A stretch of 64,000 bases of DNA. It comes from Anoxybacteroides tepidamans. Lineage in GTDB: Bacteria > Bacillota > Bacilli > Bacillales > Anoxybacillaceae. The position numbers and the translations under genes are program-made. The notes below the pieces were generated by a model. The model was not told where the DNA came from. It worked only from the letters and a program-made list of their open reading frames with translations, and did no database searches. Below, one piece after another: positions 12,847 through 37,498 of this stretch (positions within the stretch are counted from its first letter, which is position 1; every line of letters begins with the position of its first letter). The stretch is taken from contig NZ_JACHEP010000001.1 of assembly GCF_014201465.1 (NCBI RefSeq), forward strand, positions 414,833-478,832, written 5' to 3'.

Positions 12847-14139
12847 TTATGGATAAAGGCGATTTAACAAGCGCGGGAATGGGATTGTTTCGCGAACGTG
12901 TTCAACGCCGCAAATCCAAGCGACGGTGCGCTCCAATCCTAATCCGAATCCAGAATGTGGAACAGAACCGTATTGGCGCAATTCTAAATACCATTTATAC
13001 GCATCAAGCGGCAAATTGTGTTCTTCCAAGCGTTGTTTTAGCAGTTCGTAATCGTGGATGCGCTCAGAGCCGCCAATAATTTCGCCATATCCTTCCGGCG
13101 CAATTAAGTCAGCGCAAAGCACAACATTCGGACGGTTCGGATCTGGCTGCATGTAAAACGGCTTTAAGACGGTCGGATAGTGCGTAATAAACACCGGTTT
13201 GTCAAAGCTTTCGGCAATCGCCGTTTCATGCGGCGCTCCGAAATCATCGCCCCACTGGATGTCATCGAATCCTTTCTTGTGAAGAAGCTGAATCGCCTCA
13301 TCGTATGTGATGCGCGGAAATGGTGCTTGAATGTTCGCTAGTTTTGACGTATCGCGATCGAGCGTTTTTAATTCAAGCGAGCAGTTTTTCAAGACAGATT
13401 GAACGATATATGACACATATTGTTCTTGTACTTTTAAGTTGTCTTCAAACTCGTAAAACGCCATTTCTGGCTCGATCATCCAAAATTCGATTAAATGGCG
13501 GCGGGTTTTCGACTTTTCGGCACGGAACGTCGGACCAAACGAGAACACTTTGCCAAGCGCCATGGCCGCTGCTTCCATATAAAGCTGACCGCTTTGGGAA
13601 AGATACGCATCTTCATCGAAATATTTCGTATGGAACAATTCCGTCGTTCCTTCTGGTGCGCTGCCTGTTAAAATCGGCGGGTCGATTTTCACAAACCCAT
13701 TGTTGTTGAAAAATTCGTATGTCGCGCGAATGATTTCGTTGCGAATTTTCATGATCGCATGTTGGCGTTTCGAGCGCAGCCATAAATGGCGGTGATCCAT
13801 TAAAAATTCGACACCATGCTCTTTCGGCGTAATCGGATAATCAACGGCTTCATGAATGATTTCTAAATTCGTGACCGCGAGCTCATAACCGAACGGAGAA
13901 CGCTCATCAACACGAACCATCCCCGTTACATATAAAGACGTTTCTTGCGTCATTGATTTCGCGATTTTGAATACATCTTCCGATACTTGCGATTTTTCGA
14001 CGACTCCTTGAATGAAGCCTGTCCCGTCGCGCAATTGCAAAAAGGCGATCTTTCCGCTCGAGCGCTTATTCGCCAGCCAAGCGCCGATCGTCACCTCTTT
14101 CCCTACATATTTGCTTACTTCTGCAATCGTTGTCTTCAC
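12847..14139 (-). CDS. asnS: Asparaginyl-tRNA synthetase
   Basis: This is a class IIb aminoacyl-tRNA synthetase charging tRNA-Asn, 430 residues. An N-terminal OB fold ([24 protein letters not shown]) binds the anticodon. The catalytic domain follows with motif 2 ([23 protein letters not shown]) and motif 3 ([15 protein letters not shown]). The start is GTG at 14139, 8 nt after GGAGGG. No T-box leader is visible upstream; a plain promoter lies 50-80 bp away. In B. subtilis it follows aspB; here an island separates them. Confidence 0.97.
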
Positions 14140-14218: not shown

Positions 14219-14320
14219 GATGAAAGAAAAACGAAGGAGAGCGCCTAATTTTGCGCATGTAAAAATAGGTTTTATATTAGTTATTTGTCCGAAACATTTT
14301 TTCGGTCATTCTCATTTAAT

Positions 14321-14345
14321 ACAATAGGTGCGAAAGCATAAAATA
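14321..14345 (+). promoter_or_regulatory. Possible SigK-type promoter
   Basis: CATAAAATA (14337-14345) matches the SigK -10 pattern CATA-N3-TA. An AC lies 14 bp upstream, shorter than the usual 16. The gene start is 20 bp downstream, behind GGAAGG. Confidence 0.4.
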
Positions 14346-14365
14346 TATGAAAGGAAGGTAATATT

Positions 14366-14824
14366 ATGGCTTGCTTATGTAATGGAGGATTATTTCCTCG
14401 TTTGTTTAGCACACAATTTACAGCAGTTGCTAATAATGTCACTATCCCAACAACAGCTGGTACCACTACAGTGCTTACTCTTCCGCCGATCGCTACGCTT
14501 AGCAGTGATAAAGTGAAATTAGATTCCATGGTTGAATTAGCAATTGTATCGTTAACAGCTCTTAACATAACAAATGCTAGTTACGTTCTACAGCGATCTA
14601 CAAATGGAGGAGCATTCGTTGATTTGGCTCAGCTTGATATAGACTCTCCATTAACTGCTGCTGCTACAACTACTTTATATCCGAACCTTACTTGGGTAGA
14701 CATTCCAGGCGTTGGAACACAAATTTACCGTATCGTTATTGTAATTGGAACTTTACCTGTTGGTATTACTTCTATTACTGCAGAAACTCGCTCATTAAAC
14801 GCTCTTGTCGTTCGAGAAGCATAA
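14366..14824 (+). CDS. Beta-rich surface/exosporium-like protein
   Basis: The 152-residue protein begins with a Cys-containing tip (MACLCNGGLFP). It continues as Thr/Val/Ile-rich beta strands (VTIPTTAGTTTVLTLPPIATLSS, then VDIPGVGTQIYRIVIVIGTLPVG) with no signal peptide. The pattern resembles jelly-roll exosporium proteins such as the BclA tail and ExsF, but I cannot prove homology. AGGAAGG precedes the ATG; a SigK-like promoter and a terminator frame it. It belongs to an accessory island between asnS and aspB. Confidence 0.7.
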   Translation: MACLCNGGLFPRLFSTQFTAVANNVTIPTTAGTTTVLTLPPIATLSSDKVKLDSMVELAIVSLTALNITNASYVLQRSTNGGAFVDLAQLDIDSPLTAAATTTLYPNLTWVDIPGVGTQIYRIVIVIGTLPVGITSITAETRSLNALVVREA

Positions 14825-14833
14825 ATAAACAAC

Positions 14834-14872
14834 GGCTGACTCAAACAGTGCAGAATAGATATTGAGTCAGCC
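14834..14872 (+). terminator. Terminator of the beta-rich protein gene
   Basis: GGCTGACTCAA (14834-14844) pairs with TTGAGTCAGCC (14862-14872), followed by a T-rich tract. Confidence 0.75.
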
Positions 14873-15006
14873 TTCCTTAATTTATGATTTTACATTCACT
14901 AACGTTCAATTCATTCTACTATTCAGTTTTCCCATTCTTAGCAAATCCATCTCTCTCGGCATACTGTATACTTTCCCCCATCTAATTTTTTATCGGATCA
15001 TTTGAA

Positions 15007-15588
15007 TCACGCATGAATGACAATATTGTTTAAAGCCCGAATCCCATTTGTGAATTGTTTACAATAAAAAAACCCTTCCACCTTATAAGTCGTTTGTTCT
15101 TCTCTAATATCAAATTTTAGCTGAAAGTTGGAAAAAGATAATTTCTGTTTAGGTTCGATTTGTGAAATATGGACAGGCTTTAACCAAAATTCTCCTTTAT
15201 CCTCCACAATTTTATTCGCATCCTCATTCATATATTGCCACGATTCCATCACTAATGGATTCAAACGGCGATCATATTGCACATCTTCTCCAAGCTTTGC
15301 CGATAACATGGCACGTTCTTTTGGTGCCACTTTCAGACATATGAAAGGATTTTCAAGAGGAACCGCCCCGGCATTGTGAATGACAAAGTTACCGATGACA
15401 GTCCCCTTCCGCTCTGCGGTTTTCGGCAATAATAACGAATACGTAAAATAGGAAATGACATTTACATGATGAATATCTTTCTCCTGTTCTTTAGCGTTTT
15501 TTATTTCGTTCAATGTTTGCTTGATTGCCTGAATGTCATGCTCCAGCGCACGAATTTTTTTTTCCACTTGCAAAAGCAGATCGCTCAT
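15007..15588 (-). CDS. Coiled-coil plus beta-domain hypothetical protein
   Basis: The protein has 193 residues. An N-terminal coiled coil (MSDLLLQVEKKIRALEHDI ... IKNAKEQEK, about 1-40) precedes a beta-rich domain (FTYSLLLPKTAERKG, VIGNFVIHNAGAVPLENPFICLKV, KLSFSNFQLKFDI) and the end ALNNIVIHA. There is no signal peptide or membrane helix. The ATG at 15588 follows AAGGAGGG. I do not recognise the family. The layout of trimerising coil plus beta head suggests a structural or surface protein. It is downstream of the Cys-rich protein, with a terminator between them. Confidence 0.65.
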   Translation of the reverse strand: MSDLLLQVEKKIRALEHDIQAIKQTLNEIKNAKEQEKDIHHVNVISYFTYSLLLPKTAERKGTVIGNFVIHNAGAVPLENPFICLKVAPKERAMLSAKLGEDVQYDRRLNPLVMESWQYMNEDANKIVEDKGEFWLKPVHISQIEPKQKLSFSNFQLKFDIREEQTTYKVEGFFYCKQFTNGIRALNNIVIHA

Positions 15589-15639
15589 CTTTTCCCTCCT
15601 TGTGAAAATAAAGATTTCTTTCATGTTAATATGTATGAA

Positions 15640-15666
15640 AAAAAGAGGGCGAAATCCCTCTTTTTC
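15640..15666 (-). terminator. Terminator of the Cys-rich protein gene
   Basis: GAGGG and CCCTC (15645-15660) form a stem flanked by A- and T-runs. It sits just downstream of the stop at 15696. Confidence 0.7.
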
Positions 15667-15695
15667 AAAATGGTAGGAGTTGAAACTCGCTTATT

Positions 15696-16334
15696 TTACA
15701 TAATCGGAAAAACTGCTGGACATTGCGGCGGAAATACATCGACTGGACATTCTTCTTCGCAAATAACTTTTGGACGAGGTTGGCAAAACTTCGCAGCTAC
15801 TTCTAAAATGACTTCAAATGTTACGACAATACTTTGACAAACTCTTACAAAAACTGTCGCAGTAATGGTCCCATTTTCATTTAGTGTAAATGAACTCACT
15901 CGGCAACTGTTAAAAGCATTTTGTGTTTGATTACAACATACTGTTGTACCATCTGGTGCGCAAAGAATCACTTCTTCGCTTATTGTAATCAATGCTGGAT
16001 TACTTGATACAGTCACTTGTGCGCCAGCTGCGTTTGTGCCCGTCACTTCTAAAATAACTTGAATGGTTTTACTTAATGTAACAGCTTGAAGTGTAACGGC
16101 TTGATCTCCCACCATACATTCGATATCACGACGTAGACCGTCTTCCACACATTCTAATAGGGTCATGGAACAATTGACTTGTGAGATTGTTACACCAGTA
16201 AGAGCACCAGTAGGGAACGTGAATGTGATATCTCGTGTGAGTGACACAACATTTGTTGTCCAGTCGTATACTTTACAAACTTGAATACACTCAGGACTAA
16301 ACTCTTGGGCAAATTGCTCTAAATTGATTGCCAT
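15696..16334 (-). CDS. Cys-rich spore-surface-type protein
   Basis: The 212-residue protein has about 14 cysteines, beginning MAINLEQFAQEFSPECIQVCK and ending CQPRPKVICEEECPVDVFPPQCPAV. Between lie alternating beta strands (TFTFPTGALTGVTIS, IQVILEVTGTNAAGAQVTVSS, VVTFEVILEVAAKFC). It has no signal peptide. Cys-rich beta proteins of this style occur in spore crust, exosporium and appendages, but I assign no family. The ATG at 16334 follows AAAGGAG. A SigK-type promoter lies 38-64 bp upstream, supporting late mother-cell expression. Confidence 0.7.
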   Translation of the reverse strand: MAINLEQFAQEFSPECIQVCKVYDWTTNVVSLTRDITFTFPTGALTGVTISQVNCSMTLLECVEDGLRRDIECMVGDQAVTLQAVTLSKTIQVILEVTGTNAAGAQVTVSSNPALITISEEVILCAPDGTTVCCNQTQNAFNSCRVSSFTLNENGTITATVFVRVCQSIVVTFEVILEVAAKFCQPRPKVICEEECPVDVFPPQCPAVFPIM

Positions 16335-16371
16335 CGAGTAATCTCCTTTCATGAATTTTTTCAGGCTACTC

Positions 16372-16398
16372 TATACTATGTAAATGACTTACATGCGT
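16372..16398 (-). promoter_or_regulatory. Candidate SigK promoter of the Cys-rich gene
   Basis: On the minus strand AC (16398-16397), 16 bp, then CATAGTATA (16380-16372) fits the SigK consensus AC-N16-CATA-N3-TA. It lies about 40 bp before the ATG. Confidence 0.6.
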
Positions 16399-16483
16399 GA
16401 CAAAATGAGTGCCCAAAATTCCAACATATATAAATGCAATTTGGTACTTTAACGTTTTCGTCTTTTATGGAGTAATCGGTATG

Positions 16484-16617
16484 TTTCGACTGTCGGGTGA
16501 CCGAACAACACCGCTTCCAGACAAACATATTTGTCTGTGAAGCGGTTCGTTGTTCGGTCCTCTGTCACGCGAAGTCGTGACGAAGGCCAGTCACAGACTT
16601 GCCTCCGACAGTCGAAA
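16484..16617. repeat. Multi-armed palindromic intergenic element A
   Basis: A 13-bp perfect outer stem (16484-16496 with 16605-16617) encloses one long arm. That arm has 11 bp at 16499-16509 with 16549-16559, then 7 bp at 16511-16517 with 16539-16545, then 7 bp at 16519-16525 with 16530-16536. A second arm pairs GTCACG (16564-16569) with CGTGAC (16576-16581). No ORF is present. The rest of the 16353-16730 gap holds the two flanking promoters. Confidence 0.7.
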
Positions 16618-16714
16618 AAATAGGGAGTCTACTTTTTCGTCAGCCATAAGTTAAACCTCCCAGTTGTATTTATATAGTCAAACTATGTTTATGTAAACCT
16701 TCATCACGATCTTG

Positions 16715-16722
16715 CATACAAT
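16715..16722 (+). promoter_or_regulatory. SigE-type -10 element before the coiled-coil gene
   Basis: CATACAAT equals the SigE -10 consensus. No convincing -35 is visible at 14-15 bp. If used, transcription would begin near 16729, so the protein start must be downstream of 16731. Confidence 0.4.
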
Positions 16723-16775
16723 TGTAAAGAGTGGGTATTATTAAAAAAATTTCTAAAAAGGTGGTGAGCGAGATA

Positions 16776-18464
16776 GTGAACCAAGGGCGTAGAAGCATTC
16801 AGCTGGAGCAAAAAATTATTCACCTTAAATCAGAAGTAGAAAAATACAAAACAATGCTCGCTTCGTTTCAATCGGATCAACAATCGAACCATCTTAAAGA
16901 ACAAATGGAGCAGTTAACAGCCGAAAATACCCAACTTAAAGAAACTTGCGACCATTATAAAGAAACCATTTCCACACAAACTCATGAAATAAATCGCTTA
17001 TCAGCAGAGTTAGAAGAAGTGAAAAAAGACAACCGTTTATTACATGATGAAGCTCAAAAATTGAAAAATGAAAATTTTGTTCTTCACAAAAAGATTGAAA
17101 CAAATGAAGAAAAAATCCAATCTTTATTAAGCAGTGCATCTACCTACAAACAAAGACAGACGGAACTTGAAAAAGAAAAAGAAGTTATCGAAGAAAAAAT
17201 GCAGTCATTAGAGAAAGAAATGGCTTCTCATCATGCACTACTAAAAAACTATCTGTTTCTTCAATCATTATTAACATCTTGGATAGAAAGGATCAAGATC
17301 ATGGAAAAAGATTATGATTTTTTGAAAAAAAACAGTGATAAAATGTTTAAGGATTTTGAGGAATTGAAAGAAGGATTATTCACGCAAAAACAAGAAACTG
17401 AAGATTTAAAAGAAGAAGTCCGCTCGTTAGAAAAAAAGCTTTATGTCATCGAAAAAATGCTATCGGAGTTAGACAAAGAGCAACAAAAAGATATGGTCGT
17501 CCTGCAAAAACAAATTTTACATCAGCACGTTGAAATTGAATCCCTCCTTGAAAAAACTTCTCACTTCACAAATGAAATTGAAAAAATATTAAATCAAATG
17601 GCCGATTTAACCGAACGGACCGAAAAGAAAAAAGAAGATTTATTAAATCCAGAAATGAACGAAATGAAAGAAATGTTATCACAGGTAATTCAACTGCTAA
17701 CGTCCCAGCAAAAGCCCTTCTTGGCAGAAGAAAAGCGAGAAACCATTTCGCCGCCAAAAGCGAACACAATATCACCTGCCAACAGCTTTCTAAAACTACA
17801 GGAATTCATTGATGAAAAACAACAATCAATCATCGTATCCCCAGCTAAAAAGAAAAATCAATCCCATTCGCAAATGTCTAATATATATCCTCAAAAAACA
17901 AGCCAGATTAAGCATGTGCAAATCGAAAATCAGCCTTTTCAAAGCTCCCGACCTCCATTGCGACATAAGTCACCGGGAGAGGATGATGACAAATTACCCA
18001 ATTCAATAATTCCTGCCGTTCTATACACAACTGATTCAGATGACGTGGCAGACACGTATTCGTTCAACGATTCCGATGCATCGATCCATGCTTTCATTGC
18101 TTCAACAGAAGAACCGCCAGTAATGATGGAACATCATATGGAGAATACCGAATGTGAGCCGTCAATGCTGCCTCAAGAAATAGCAGAAGCAGAACTTCAC
18201 CGTGAAATCACTTTAACTATAGGCAATGTACAAAACACAACGGTTACCGCGCTAGATGCTTTTCTCCATAACGATAATTCAACAGGCGAAGAAAAAGCCG
18301 ATTCAGTACCGATTCAAGCAGCCGACGACACACAACCGTACTCTTATGCGTCGCATGCAGTACGAACAAACGAATCCGTTTTTGATCGAGCCGATGAAAA
18401 GTATGCCGAAAGCAAAAAATGGCGATTGTTCTCTTTGTTCAAAAAAGCAAAAGCAGTGAAATAA
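16776..18464 (+). CDS. Long coiled-coil protein with basic C-terminus
   Basis: The protein has 562 residues. Heptad-rich coiled coil covers about residues 1-320 (LEQKIIHLKSEVEKYK ... ENTQLKETCDHYKETI ... LEKKLYVIEKMLSELDKEQ). An acidic, Ser/Gln-rich, probably disordered region follows, with a short basic amphipathic end WRLFSLFKKAKAVK. It lacks a signal peptide or membrane helix. I chose GTG 16776 because AAGGTGGTGA lies 8 nt upstream; a GTG at 16731 would add a basic amphipathic stretch but has no RBS. The layout suggests a scaffold or morphogenetic protein. Family unknown. Confidence 0.7.
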   Translation: MNQGRRSIQLEQKIIHLKSEVEKYKTMLASFQSDQQSNHLKEQMEQLTAENTQLKETCDHYKETISTQTHEINRLSAELEEVKKDNRLLHDEAQKLKNENFVLHKKIETNEEKIQSLLSSASTYKQRQTELEKEKEVIEEKMQSLEKEMASHHALLKNYLFLQSLLTSWIERIKIMEKDYDFLKKNSDKMFKDFEELKEGLFTQKQETEDLKEEVRSLEKKLYVIEKMLSELDKEQQKDMVVLQKQILHQHVEIESLLEKTSHFTNEIEKILNQMADLTERTEKKKEDLLNPEMNEMKEMLSQVIQLLTSQQKPFLAEEKRETISPPKANTISPANSFLKLQEFIDEKQQSIIVSPAKKKNQSHSQMSNIYPQKTSQIKHVQIENQPFQSSRPPLRHKSPGEDDDKLPNSIIPAVLYTTDSDDVADTYSFNDSDASIHAFIASTEEPPVMMEHHMENTECEPSMLPQEIAEAELHREITLTIGNVQNTTVTALDAFLHNDNSTGEEKADSVPIQAADDTQPYSYASHAVRTNESVFDRADEKYAESKKWRLFSLFKKAKAVK

Positions 18465-18465
18465 C

Positions 18466-18498
18466 AAAGAAAGAGGGGATTGCCTTCCCCTCCTTCTT
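18466..18498. terminator. Terminator between the coiled-coil gene and aspB
   Basis: AGAGGGG and CCCCTC pair around ATTGCCTT, with A-rich and T-rich flanks. The genes converge here. Confidence 0.65.
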
Positions 18499-18517: not shown

Positions 18518-19708
18518 CTATTTCATTTTCTGCTCCATAAACTGTTTGATCCGCTCGATAGCTTTTTCCAATACGTCAAGTGATGTCGCATACGATAAGC
18601 GAACATTGTCAGGAGCGCCGAATCCTGAGCCTGGCACGAGGGCAACTTTCGCTTCCTCTAAAAGTGCCTCAACGAATTCATCAACGCTGCTATAGCTGGC
18701 CATCAACGCTGCTTGACGGGCGTTCGGGAACAAATAAAACGCTCCTTGCGGCTTGACGCACGTAAAACCCGGAATTTGAATTAATTTTTCGTAAATAATA
18801 TTCAGGCGCTCTTCAAACGCTTGCCGCATTTGTTTAACCGGCTCTTGTGGCCCGTTGTATGCCGCAATCGCCGCATATTGAGCGATCGATGTCGGGTTCG
18901 ATGTGCTATGGCTTGCAAGGTCGGTCATCGCCTGAACGATTTCTTTATTTCCTGCCGCATATCCGATACGCCAGCCAGTCATCGAATGCGATTTCGACAC
19001 ACCGTTAATGATGATCGTTTGCGCTTTTAACTCTGGTGAAAGCTGCGCGATCGATACATGCTTATTGTCCCCATACACAAGTTTTTCGTAAATCTCGTCA
19101 GATACGATTAAAATATCGTGCTCTAAGCAAATGTCACCGAGCGCTTTCAGCTCGTCTTCTGTGTAAATCATGCCGGTCGGGTTGCTCGGCGAGTTGATGA
19201 TGACTGCTTTCGTCCGCTCTGTGATAGCGGATTTCAGCTGTTCTGGCGTGATTTTAAATTCGTTTTCCTCCAATCCTTCCACATAAACCGGCACACCTCC
19301 AGCTAACTTCACTTGTTCTGGGTAGCTGACCCAATACGGCGTCGGGATAATGACTTCATCTCCTTCATCTAAAATCACTTGAAACAATGTGTAAAGCGCA
19401 TGTTTCGCCCCGACACATACAATAATTTCCGACGGTTCGTAATGAAGATTTTGATCTTGTTGAAATTTTTTCACAATTTCCGATTTTAAGCTTGCCAATC
19501 CACCGGACGGCGTATATTTCGTATGGCCTTCGTTCATTGATTTGACCGCCGCATCGATAATATGCTGCGGCGTGTTAAAATCAGGCTCGCCTGCTCCTAA
19601 GCCGATCACATCATGACCTGCTGCTTTTAATTCTTTTGCTTTCGCGGTGATCGCCAACGTCGTCGAAGGTGTGAGCGACGACACTCGTTTTGCTAATTTC
19701 ATCATCAT
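18518..19708 (-). CDS. aspB: Aspartate aminotransferase
   Basis: This is a PLP-dependent class I (Ib) aminotransferase, 396 residues, interconverting aspartate/2-oxoglutarate and oxaloacetate/glutamate. It shows GLGAGEPDFNTP at the N-terminus, SPSNPTGMIY, the Asp/Tyr pair in VSDEIYEKLVY, the PLP Lys in NGVSKSHSMTGWRIGY and the substrate-binding Arg in VRLSYATS. The first of three tandem ATG/AAA codons is used; GGGGGA precedes. ypmB lies 11 bp upstream, the conserved ypmA-ypmB-aspB unit. Confidence 0.95.
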   Translation of the reverse strand: MMMKLAKRVSSLTPSTTLAITAKAKELKAAGHDVIGLGAGEPDFNTPQHIIDAAVKSMNEGHTKYTPSGGLASLKSEIVKKFQQDQNLHYEPSEIIVCVGAKHALYTLFQVILDEGDEVIIPTPYWVSYPEQVKLAGGVPVYVEGLEENEFKITPEQLKSAITERTKAVIINSPSNPTGMIYTEDELKALGDICLEHDILIVSDEIYEKLVYGDNKHVSIAQLSPELKAQTIIINGVSKSHSMTGWRIGYAAGNKEIVQAMTDLASHSTSNPTSIAQYAAIAAYNGPQEPVKQMRQAFEERLNIIYEKLIQIPGFTCVKPQGAFYLFPNARQAALMASYSSVDEFVEALLEEAKVALVPGSGFGAPDNVRLSYATSLDVLEKAIERIKQFMEQKMK

Positions 19709-36717: not shown

Positions 36718-36730
36718 CCTGTTGCGTTGC

Positions 36731-37498
36731 TTATTTCGCATTTAATCCAGCGATAAATTCGGAAAGCTTTTTCAACTCTTCGTCTGTACCTTTGAAAACG
36801 CCTGGTGGCATGTTGCCTTTACCTTCTTTCGCGATCTTCGCTATTTCTTCCGCACTTAAACCTGTGCCGACAAGGGACGGTGCAGCCGGTCCGCCCGATA
36901 AGTTTTCGCCATGACACGTAATACATGTATTTGCTTGCGCAATTTTATAGCCTTCCGCATTTTTGTCAATTTCGACTTGAGCGCGAATTTTTCCTTGCTC
37001 AGCTGCTTTTTTCCAGTCGTGTGTCACAACCGATTCCCAAGTTAAGAAAATCATCGCCGCAAGCGTCAATAGCATCATGCCAACTGCCACCGGACGCTTC
37101 GTTGGACGGCGCTCCGGCCCGCGATCTAAAAACGGTGCAAGCAGTAACGCTCCGAACGCTAGCCCCGGCATGACGATCGCCCCGATCACCGTATAAGGAC
37201 CAGAAGCGTACGAATATTTCAGCAATTGGTATAAAAATAAGAAATACCAGTCTGGAAGCGGAATATACGACGTATCTGTTGGATCAGCAACACGCTCTAA
37301 CGGAGATGGATGCGCAACAGTTAAAGACAGGAAACCGACTAAAAAGACGGAACCAACCATCCATTCCTTCAGCAAGAAGTTCGGCCAAAACGCTTCTGTT
37401 TTCCCTGGATATTCCGAATAATCCTTCGGGATATTCGGCTTTCTCACAGCAGAAACGCGGGAATCGCCGACGAATTTCATCCCTTTTCCGCGATGCAT
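36731..37498 (-). CDS. qcrC: Menaquinol:cytochrome c reductase cytochrome b/c subunit
   Basis: QcrC (255 residues) fuses a subunit-IV-like membrane domain, with three helices and the PDWYFLFLYQLL motif near the quinol site, to a C-terminal cytochrome c domain. Heme is held by CITCH with an axial Met in NMPPGVF. The ATG at 37498 follows GGAGGGAAACGTG. It is the last gene of qcrABC, the bc complex passing electrons from menaquinol. Confidence 0.96.
   Translation of the reverse strand: MHRGKGMKFVGDSRVSAVRKPNIPKDYSEYPGKTEAFWPNFLLKEWMVGSVFLVGFLSLTVAHPSPLERVADPTDTSYIPLPDWYFLFLYQLLKYSYASGPYTVIGAIVMPGLAFGALLLAPFLDRGPERRPTKRPVAVGMMLLTLAAMIFLTWESVVTHDWKKAAEQGKIRAQVEIDKNAEGYKIAQANTCITCHGENLSGGPAAPSLVGTGLSAEEIAKIAKEGKGNMPPGVFKGTDEELKKLSEFIAGLNAK

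Follow-up and report, generated by a model that had tools for sequence, protein, structure and literature searches.

What do the four genes that separate the housekeeping genes asnS and aspB in the thermophilic spore-former Anoxybacteroides tepidamans encode, and do they form a system of the spore surface? We analyzed a 64,000-nucleotide stretch of this genome (here called the window), in which four open reading frames (ORFs), p1 to p4, span positions 14366-18464 between asnS (12847-14139) and aspB (18518-19708). An original prediction, made from the sequence alone, had described these genes as an island missing from the junction in Bacillus subtilis and had proposed that they encode part of a spore surface made by the mother cell. 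We found that p3 matches a known family of morphogenetic spore coat proteins, and we think it probable, with considerable room for doubt, that the unit is a horizontally exchanged cassette for the outermost, mother-cell-made spore layer, in which p3 and p2 would dock a fast-changing head, p1.

All four genes were recovered as ORFs, including the 562-residue p4 and the p3 with 14 cysteines that had been predicted (Table 1). The starts of p2, p3, and p4 were chosen from Shine-Dalgarno-like sites and ortholog alignment, the longest possible ORFs being 205, 218, and 577 amino acids (aa), respectively. When p1-p4 were compared with seven orthologs (six for p4), every finite ratio of nonsynonymous to synonymous divergence (dN/dS) was below 1, with a maximum of 0.81 for p1, and we therefore take them to be real genes. 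The N-termini, inspected by eye, agree with the earlier statement that none of the proteins carries a secretion signal.

A BMQ_0737-family coat protein and its neighbors

p3 matches NCBIfam NF052457.1, the BMQ_0737-family "morphogenetic spore coat protein," with an E-value of 2.5e-48 and 164.9 bits (cut-off 71), and the match, which exceeds the curated cut-off, covers positions 2-198 of 199. This match assigns p3 to an already described family, that of the BMQ_0737 morphogenetic spore coat proteins. BMQ_0737 of Bacillus megaterium is placed with CotX among the outermost spore proteins in a portion of PMC4656864. We regard p3 as a candidate anchor.

The p2 protein reads as a short N-terminal coil followed by a beta-like remainder. 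No curated Pfam or NCBIfam family matched it above cut-off, and its profile found nothing meaningful among PDB sequences, the weak matches being mostly coiled-coil constructs over the p2 N-terminus. Searches of 101 genomes with one query each, at whose sensitivity the counts hold, found p2 matches in 72 genomes and p3 matches in 71, all of them among those 72. A p2 place had a p3-family place within 3 kb in 85 of 88 cases, in 76 of which p3 lay upstream on the same strand, and had none in three; in G069, the stretch read holds two p3 copies and the p2 match is on another contig. Judged from these searches, p2 and p3 are a widespread Bacillales pair, p2 being a near-constant neighbor of BMQ_0737-family genes.

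This genome holds two further p3-family members. A paralogous set (coil, BMQ_0737, and p2-type) adjoins genes that we read, from sequence only, as spoVA. In the third copy (contig C10, L145:5951-6913, + strand), an Ena domain (PF13157, 2.2e-21) is fused before the BMQ_0737 domain (154.9 bits), and an Ena gene (L145:5140-5550, - strand, 1.5e-23) is divergent to the fusion gene. As it is described in part of PMC12921279, Ena1C anchors the endospore appendage (ENA) type S-ENA, whose coat receptor is called unidentified there. The fusion protein is a candidate for the coat anchor of S-ENA, or its link to the coat, and, if so, it would explain how S-ENA is attached to the coat in these species. A similar fusion is held by G010, and a Priestia megaterium plasmid protein annotated as S-Ena matches the fusion over 89% of its length. 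Two divergent matches to DUF4183, the F-ENA type, lie on contig C19 (35984-36202, - strand, and 36730-36975, + strand), and the organism may thus carry F-ENA as well as S-ENA.

Like its relatives, the island p3 is rich in cysteine, scores far above the family cut-off, and belongs to the family beside whose members p2-type genes are nearly always found. Unlike them, it is joined to p1 and p4 and, in a tree of 34 p3-family rows, forms one group (99/97) with the copy from G063, separate from the spoVA-side and Ena-fusion groups. The branch of G063 in this tree is long, the deep forks are poorly supported, and the program cautions that long branches may be joined. G063, a genome of another family, has the same four slots in the order p4-slot, p3, p2, p1. 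On the Lysinibacillus fusiformis plasmid pMGMM7, the p3 and p2 homologs keep this order and follow a long, divergent coil assigned to the p4 slot by its position, but the adjacent head gene encodes a Cys-tipped BclB-related protein (TIGR03721, 2.1e-42) and not p1. A search of plasmids found no p1 and four records each for p2 and p3, the same four and all of them distant. The plasmid CP031730.1 (L204), recorded as Stenotrophomonas, has the same spore-coat locus as Lysinibacillus; a mislabeled organism or a mixed sample is the probable cause.

For p4, the library matches were generic coiled coils, with no curated family above cut-off. Its N-terminal box, LEQKIIHLKSEVEKY, takes a form, LxQKIIHxKSExxKY, that also occurs in the spoVA-side coil and p2 proteins; it was found in 33 distinct ORFs of 2540 scanned, which come from loci mostly fetched for these genes, and in 1 of 144 ORFs in the window. 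The C-terminal tail of p4 orthologs is aromatic and basic (e.g., WRLFSLFKKAKAVK), and loosely similar ends were seen, by eye and with no control, in p4-slot proteins of other families. We consider p4 a candidate tether or scaffold. In G046, a small JAB-domain protein (PF14464, 2.2e-21; L147:4157-4561) directly follows the p4-slot coil, similar-looking small proteins are present in G091 and G077 (L148:4014-4430 and L149:4174-4566), and a Cytobacillus plasmid locus has an annotated M67 metallopeptidase alongside.

A predicted jelly roll with a cysteine tip

p1 matched no family in Pfam, NCBIfam, or PHROGs, and no Pfam family was found up to an E-value of 10. It opens with a C-x-C tip and a GLFPxLFFTQ segment, conserved among the island orthologs, which are followed by a predicted TNF/C1q-like jelly roll. 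The AlphaFold model is good (predicted local distance difference test score [pLDDT] 85.1; predicted template modeling score 0.78), with the first 11 residues forming a free, low-confidence part. A Foldseek search of the PDB matched the model to RANKL (3urf; template modeling [TM] scores 0.62/0.60) and to a TNF-like lectin (9ib7; 0.58/0.64), and in a viral structure library the top three matches were collagen-like proteins of cedratviruses (TM 0.74-0.80, with no part of these proteins specified). Searches of PDB sequences with p1, p3, and a p1 profile gave no meaningful match. The fold class of p1 is predicted to be TNF/C1q-like.

Collagen-like proteins of G052, Clostridium akagii, and C. bowmanii carry a p1-like domain as their C-terminal head. 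Across 397 genomes sampled from the order, 36 had a p1-like match (E 1e-6). Among 22 matching ORFs in 21 loci (L211-L231), collagen repeats were present in 8 and absent from 14, and all 14 of the latter had at least two cysteines near the N-terminus (by eye, first 60 residues). p1 resembles the BclA/BclB collagen-like exosporium proteins in that p1-like domains serve as C-terminal heads of collagen-like proteins in other Firmicutes, but it lacks G-X-Y repeats and matches no Pfam or NCBIfam model; its predicted jelly roll also gives a weak structural match to BxpB/ExsF. In the 12 island p1 orthologs aligned, the body was free of cysteine in all, and the tip was C-x-C in 11. G063 and G106 each have nine p1-like matches; one of those in G063 is part of a p2-p3 module, and the rest are on contigs other than that one.

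The phage tail proteins among the Foldseek matches of p1, and the fact that the site of the unit varies between genomes, could suggest that the unit is what remains of a phage or another mobile element and not a spore system. We consider this scarcely credible, and it was already disfavored: p1 has no PHROG match, and p2, p3, and p4 have none below E 0.01; no p1 relative was found in viral contigs searched with two p1 alignments, nor p1 or p3 in 50,697 phage records; a repeat search at the cassette edges found neither a repeat pair nor terminal repeats; and p3 belongs to a spore coat family. The original prediction had raised structural likeness to unrelated proteins, such as those of phages, as a reason for doubt. 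No sequence relatives were found in phages, but phage and virus proteins are among those that the p1 fold resembles.

Conserved promoter-like patterns upstream of p3 and p4

The original prediction had placed candidate SigK or SigE elements before three of the genes, which held for p3 and p4 but not for a third. The strict sigma-K-like pattern AC-N15..17-CATANNNTA, based on what we take to be the sigma-K consensus, was present upstream of p3 in 11 of 11 orthologs, compared to 0.14 expected after dinucleotide shuffling. The rows of this and the following tests are the window and ten named loci, which are related orthologs, so the counts are not independent. Upstream of p4, CATA[CT]AAT was found in 10 of 10 orthologs (0.24 expected in shuffles; L129 left out), a pattern that was picked by eye after viewing the sequences. 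In three rows (p2 of L130, and p4 of L130 and of L133), the upstream stretch is shifted, since the start that was taken differs from the exact start codon. A relaxed sigma-K form fit the region upstream of p1 in 4 of 11 rows (0.17 expected), and the conserved block there is a candidate promoter of p1.

A unit with several chromosomal sites

To describe the distribution of the unit, we sampled 41 genomes of the family (the organism's own, those of its genus, and others of its family). The set or its remains was present in 20 of the 41. p1 occurs in the same 20 genomes as the strong p4 matches (E-values of 8.1e-26 or lower), and island-type p2 and p3 occur in 19, all but G001. The four genes were thus distributed jointly, as the original prediction had supposed, and were not seen to be distributed independently; p1-like genes and p2-p3 genes, on the other hand, do also occur apart.

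That these genes are absent from the junction elsewhere held among the 24 relatives tested. These are the 21 family members without p1 and three genomes of other families (G041, G046, and G063). In 23 of them, asnS and aspB are 18-837 bp apart (18-246 bp in 19 genomes); in G003, asnS was not reached within 1.5 kb. Between asnS and aspB is nevertheless not the general home of the unit. It adjoins aspB in 6 of 20 carriers (G000, G001, G005, G006, G016, and G019) and lies elsewhere in 14, where aspB is on the same contig more than 400 kb away in 6 and on another contig in 8, counts that are limited by contig breaks in draft genomes. We therefore dropped the asnS-aspB site as a defining feature of the system. 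In the Anoxybacillus loci L130 and L131, the four genes lie between asnS and aspB, and L142 has their remains there; the stretches covered in the other named carriers contain neither asnS nor aspB.

DNA homology gives the approximate extent of the cassette. Similarity of the window to Parageobacillus caldoxylosilyticus, G023, P. thermantarcticus, Geobacillus thermodenitrificans, and G013 begins at 14261-14280 with the flanks unmatched, the left blastn edge being 14280 against P. caldoxylosilyticus L129 and G023 L007 and 14261-14278 in the three others. The right edge is 18494 against G023 L099, and matches of other loci end at 17327-18056, within p4. In A. vitaminiphilus and an Anoxybacillus sp., which carry the unit at the same site, the flanks match too.

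This distribution also bears on a plainer explanation, in which the unit is an ordinary coat or crust patch of four cross-linked filler proteins, with p1 unexposed and its turnover reflecting relaxed constraint. The annotation of p3 as a morphogenetic coat protein fits this, and damaged copies occur as expected of dispensable genes: in the broken cassette of G001 (L154), genes that we read as transposases stand in place of p2 and p3, and what is left of p1 and p4 is an N-terminal and a C-terminal piece, respectively, while the unit of G007 has decayed, G013 has a split p1, and G027 has an interrupted p4. However, relatives of p1 head collagen-like proteins, and the whole unit occurs at several chromosomal sites, and we judge the coat patch to be rather improbable.

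Exchange between genera

Synonymous divergence (dS) was estimated by the Nei-Gojobori method, by which high values are rough; six island values were non-finite, and p4 of L129 was omitted. Compared to P. caldoxylosilyticus (G018), the window had dS values of 0.28 for p1, 0.45 for p2, and 0.45 for p3 against 1.97 for aspB. The values for A. vitaminiphilus (G019) were 0.39, 0.53, 0.74, and 1.35 for p1 to p4 against 1.92 for asnS and 3.39 for aspB, and those for P. thermantarcticus (G015) were 0.53, 0.88, 0.68, and 1.22 against 1.38 for aspB. The order was reversed for G005, a genome of the same genus as the window, with 1.44, 2.23, 1.69, and 4.07 for p1 to p4 and only 0.96 for asnS and 0.98 for aspB. 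In 16 genomes, the aspB tree unites the three own-genus genomes (84/99, not starred), and their grouping was rejected for p2 and p3 combined (p-AU 3.4e-15) in an approximately unbiased (AU) test done after the dS values were known. Together, these comparisons indicate that the cassette was transferred between genera.

In the three low-dS pairs, dN/dS was 0.78, 0.81, and 0.57 for p1, compared to 0.177-0.180 for p2 and 0.134-0.184 for p3. The pattern in p1, which covers only a small number of codons (150), fits what would be seen in an exposed, changing head.

A proposed dock and head on the spore surface

The predicted mother-cell-made spore surface is supported by the NF052457 match, the sigma-K-like site before p3, and the collagen-head relatives of p1, and it is further backed by the BclB-related and Ena-domain genes beside other p3-family members. 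At the level of sequence, a spore-surface role is well supported. The analysis establishes the gene set, the family of p3, the predicted fold class of p1, the linkage of the genes, transfer between genera, and promoter conservation. We infer the head-on-anchor mechanics and, with them, the trimer state of p1, its surface exposure, the p1-p3 bond, and the roles of p2 and p4. In this arrangement, p3 and its partner p2 would form a disulfide-rich docking layer on the coat, and p4 would be a coiled-coil tether or scaffold, with an N-terminal box like that of coils at other BMQ_0737 loci. p1 would be an exposed, fast-evolving jelly-roll head, presumably a trimer, attached through its Cys tip. Since the p1 body lacks cysteine, the tip would bond a partner (in the simplest case, p3) or its own trimer mates; for the same reason, it would not be bonded to the body of the next p1 as in a disulfide-linked fiber.

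A fiber of another kind, in which p1 trimers stack via GLFPxLFFTQ in the manner of the F-ENA N-terminal hook and p3 serves as the base, would be consistent with the conservation of this segment and the free, low-confidence first 11 residues of the model. In the parts of PMC11952670 that deal with them, F-ENA polymerizes through such hooks, and S-ENA and F-ENA are, like the proposed p1, spore-surface beta proteins with N-terminal connectors; an Ena domain is also fused to a BMQ_0737 domain in this genome. However, p1 gave no match to DUF4183 or the Ena family, the M-P hook motif described in that paper is absent from it, and the genome already has two DUF4183 and two Ena-domain matches at other places, so we consider a new p1 fiber unlikely. 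As an Ena or F-ENA subunit proper, p1 was rejected: PF13157 was not among the p1 or p3 matches up to E 10, nor PF13799 (DUF4183) among those of p1.

Several results weigh against the dock-and-head cassette. The p3 model is poor (pLDDT 66.1) and had no structural match in the PDB at E 0.001, its fold being too uncertain to place. For p1, the fit to anthrax BxpB (8d02) is weak (E 1.4e-3; TM 0.51/0.52), Foldseek gave a mixed list in which most TNF-like matches rank by E-value below a birnavirus capsid protein and phage tail proteins, and the L009 ortholog has a single tip cysteine. The strict sigma-K pattern was absent upstream of p1 (0/11), p2 (0/10), and p4 (0/10), of which the failures at p1 and p2 count here. 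The low-dS signal is limited to Parageobacillus and A. vitaminiphilus; in Geobacillus, island dS is not clearly below that of aspB (for G009, 3.27 for p1 and 1.55 for p3 against 1.48), the AU test came after these estimates, and dN/dS of p1 against G005 is 0.21, which is not high. Finally, seven other p3-family loci (G046, G091, G077, G094, G075, G069, and G097) have no p1-like neighbor in the stretch read, so p1 is not needed for the p2-p3 pair.

Both the p3 family and this type of system in general (outer spore proteins, ENA, and BclA-type heads) are already known. The original prediction had called the set undescribed, which does not hold for the p3 family and the p2-p3 pair; in the open-licence literature that we searched, we did not find the four-gene unit, its exchange between genera, or the differing head genes at BMQ_0737 loci described. 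To our knowledge, little is known of outer spore proteins beyond B. subtilis and B. cereus. A broader reading, which we offer tentatively and with more doubt than conviction, is that BMQ_0737 and its partner are a general Bacillales docking platform for interchangeable heads (p1-type jelly rolls, BclB-type heads, or Ena fibers via the fused Ena domain) and that thermophilic Bacillales swap whole head-and-dock cassettes between genera. If this were true, cassette swapping would alter the spore surface in a way comparable to capsule or O-antigen switching in other bacteria, and the dock and head would be an instance of a spore-surface trait exchanged horizontally. With a two-gene dock of wide occurrence and exchangeable heads, the diversification of spore surfaces could also be tested in non-pathogenic thermophiles of importance to food spoilage and biotechnology.

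Other features of the locus

Table 1. Features of the p1-p4 locus, in window positions
Feature	Position	Strand	Remarks
Cassette	14280..18494	none	Approximate extent, from DNA homology to genomes with the unit at another site
Conserved block upstream of p1	14290..14327	+	CGAAACATTTTT...TCATTTAATACAATAG; by eye, 11 upstream regions
p1	14366..14824	+	152 aa; N-terminus MACLCNGG
p2	15007..15588	-	193 aa; best start 15588
Terminator-like hairpin with T run between p3 and p2	15640..15665	-	By eye, unscored
p3	15696..16334	-	212 aa, 14 Cys; best start 16334
Sigma-K-like promoter of p3	16372..16398	-	AC - 16 nt - CATAGTATA
Insertion between p3 and p4 with palindromic MITE-like repeat	16437..16689	none	Alignment gap versus relatives
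Sigma-E/K-type -10 upstream of p4	16715..16722	+	CATACAAT
p4	16776..18464	+	562 aa, coiled coil

The hairpin between p3 and p2 was seen by eye in 8 of 10 ortholog upstream regions, with CATACATA following it in most rows, and it may set the ratio of p3 to p2.

The insertion between p3 and p4 is missing from P. caldoxylosilyticus, G023, and P. thermantarcticus in the alignment. It contains a repeat resembling a miniature inverted-repeat transposable element (MITE), with imperfect inverted ends at 16427-16453 and 16650-16676. At least 40 near-full-length copies with 92-100% identity are present in this genome (40 of 83 candidates were scored), and an element of similar look lies in the asnS-aspB gap of G040.

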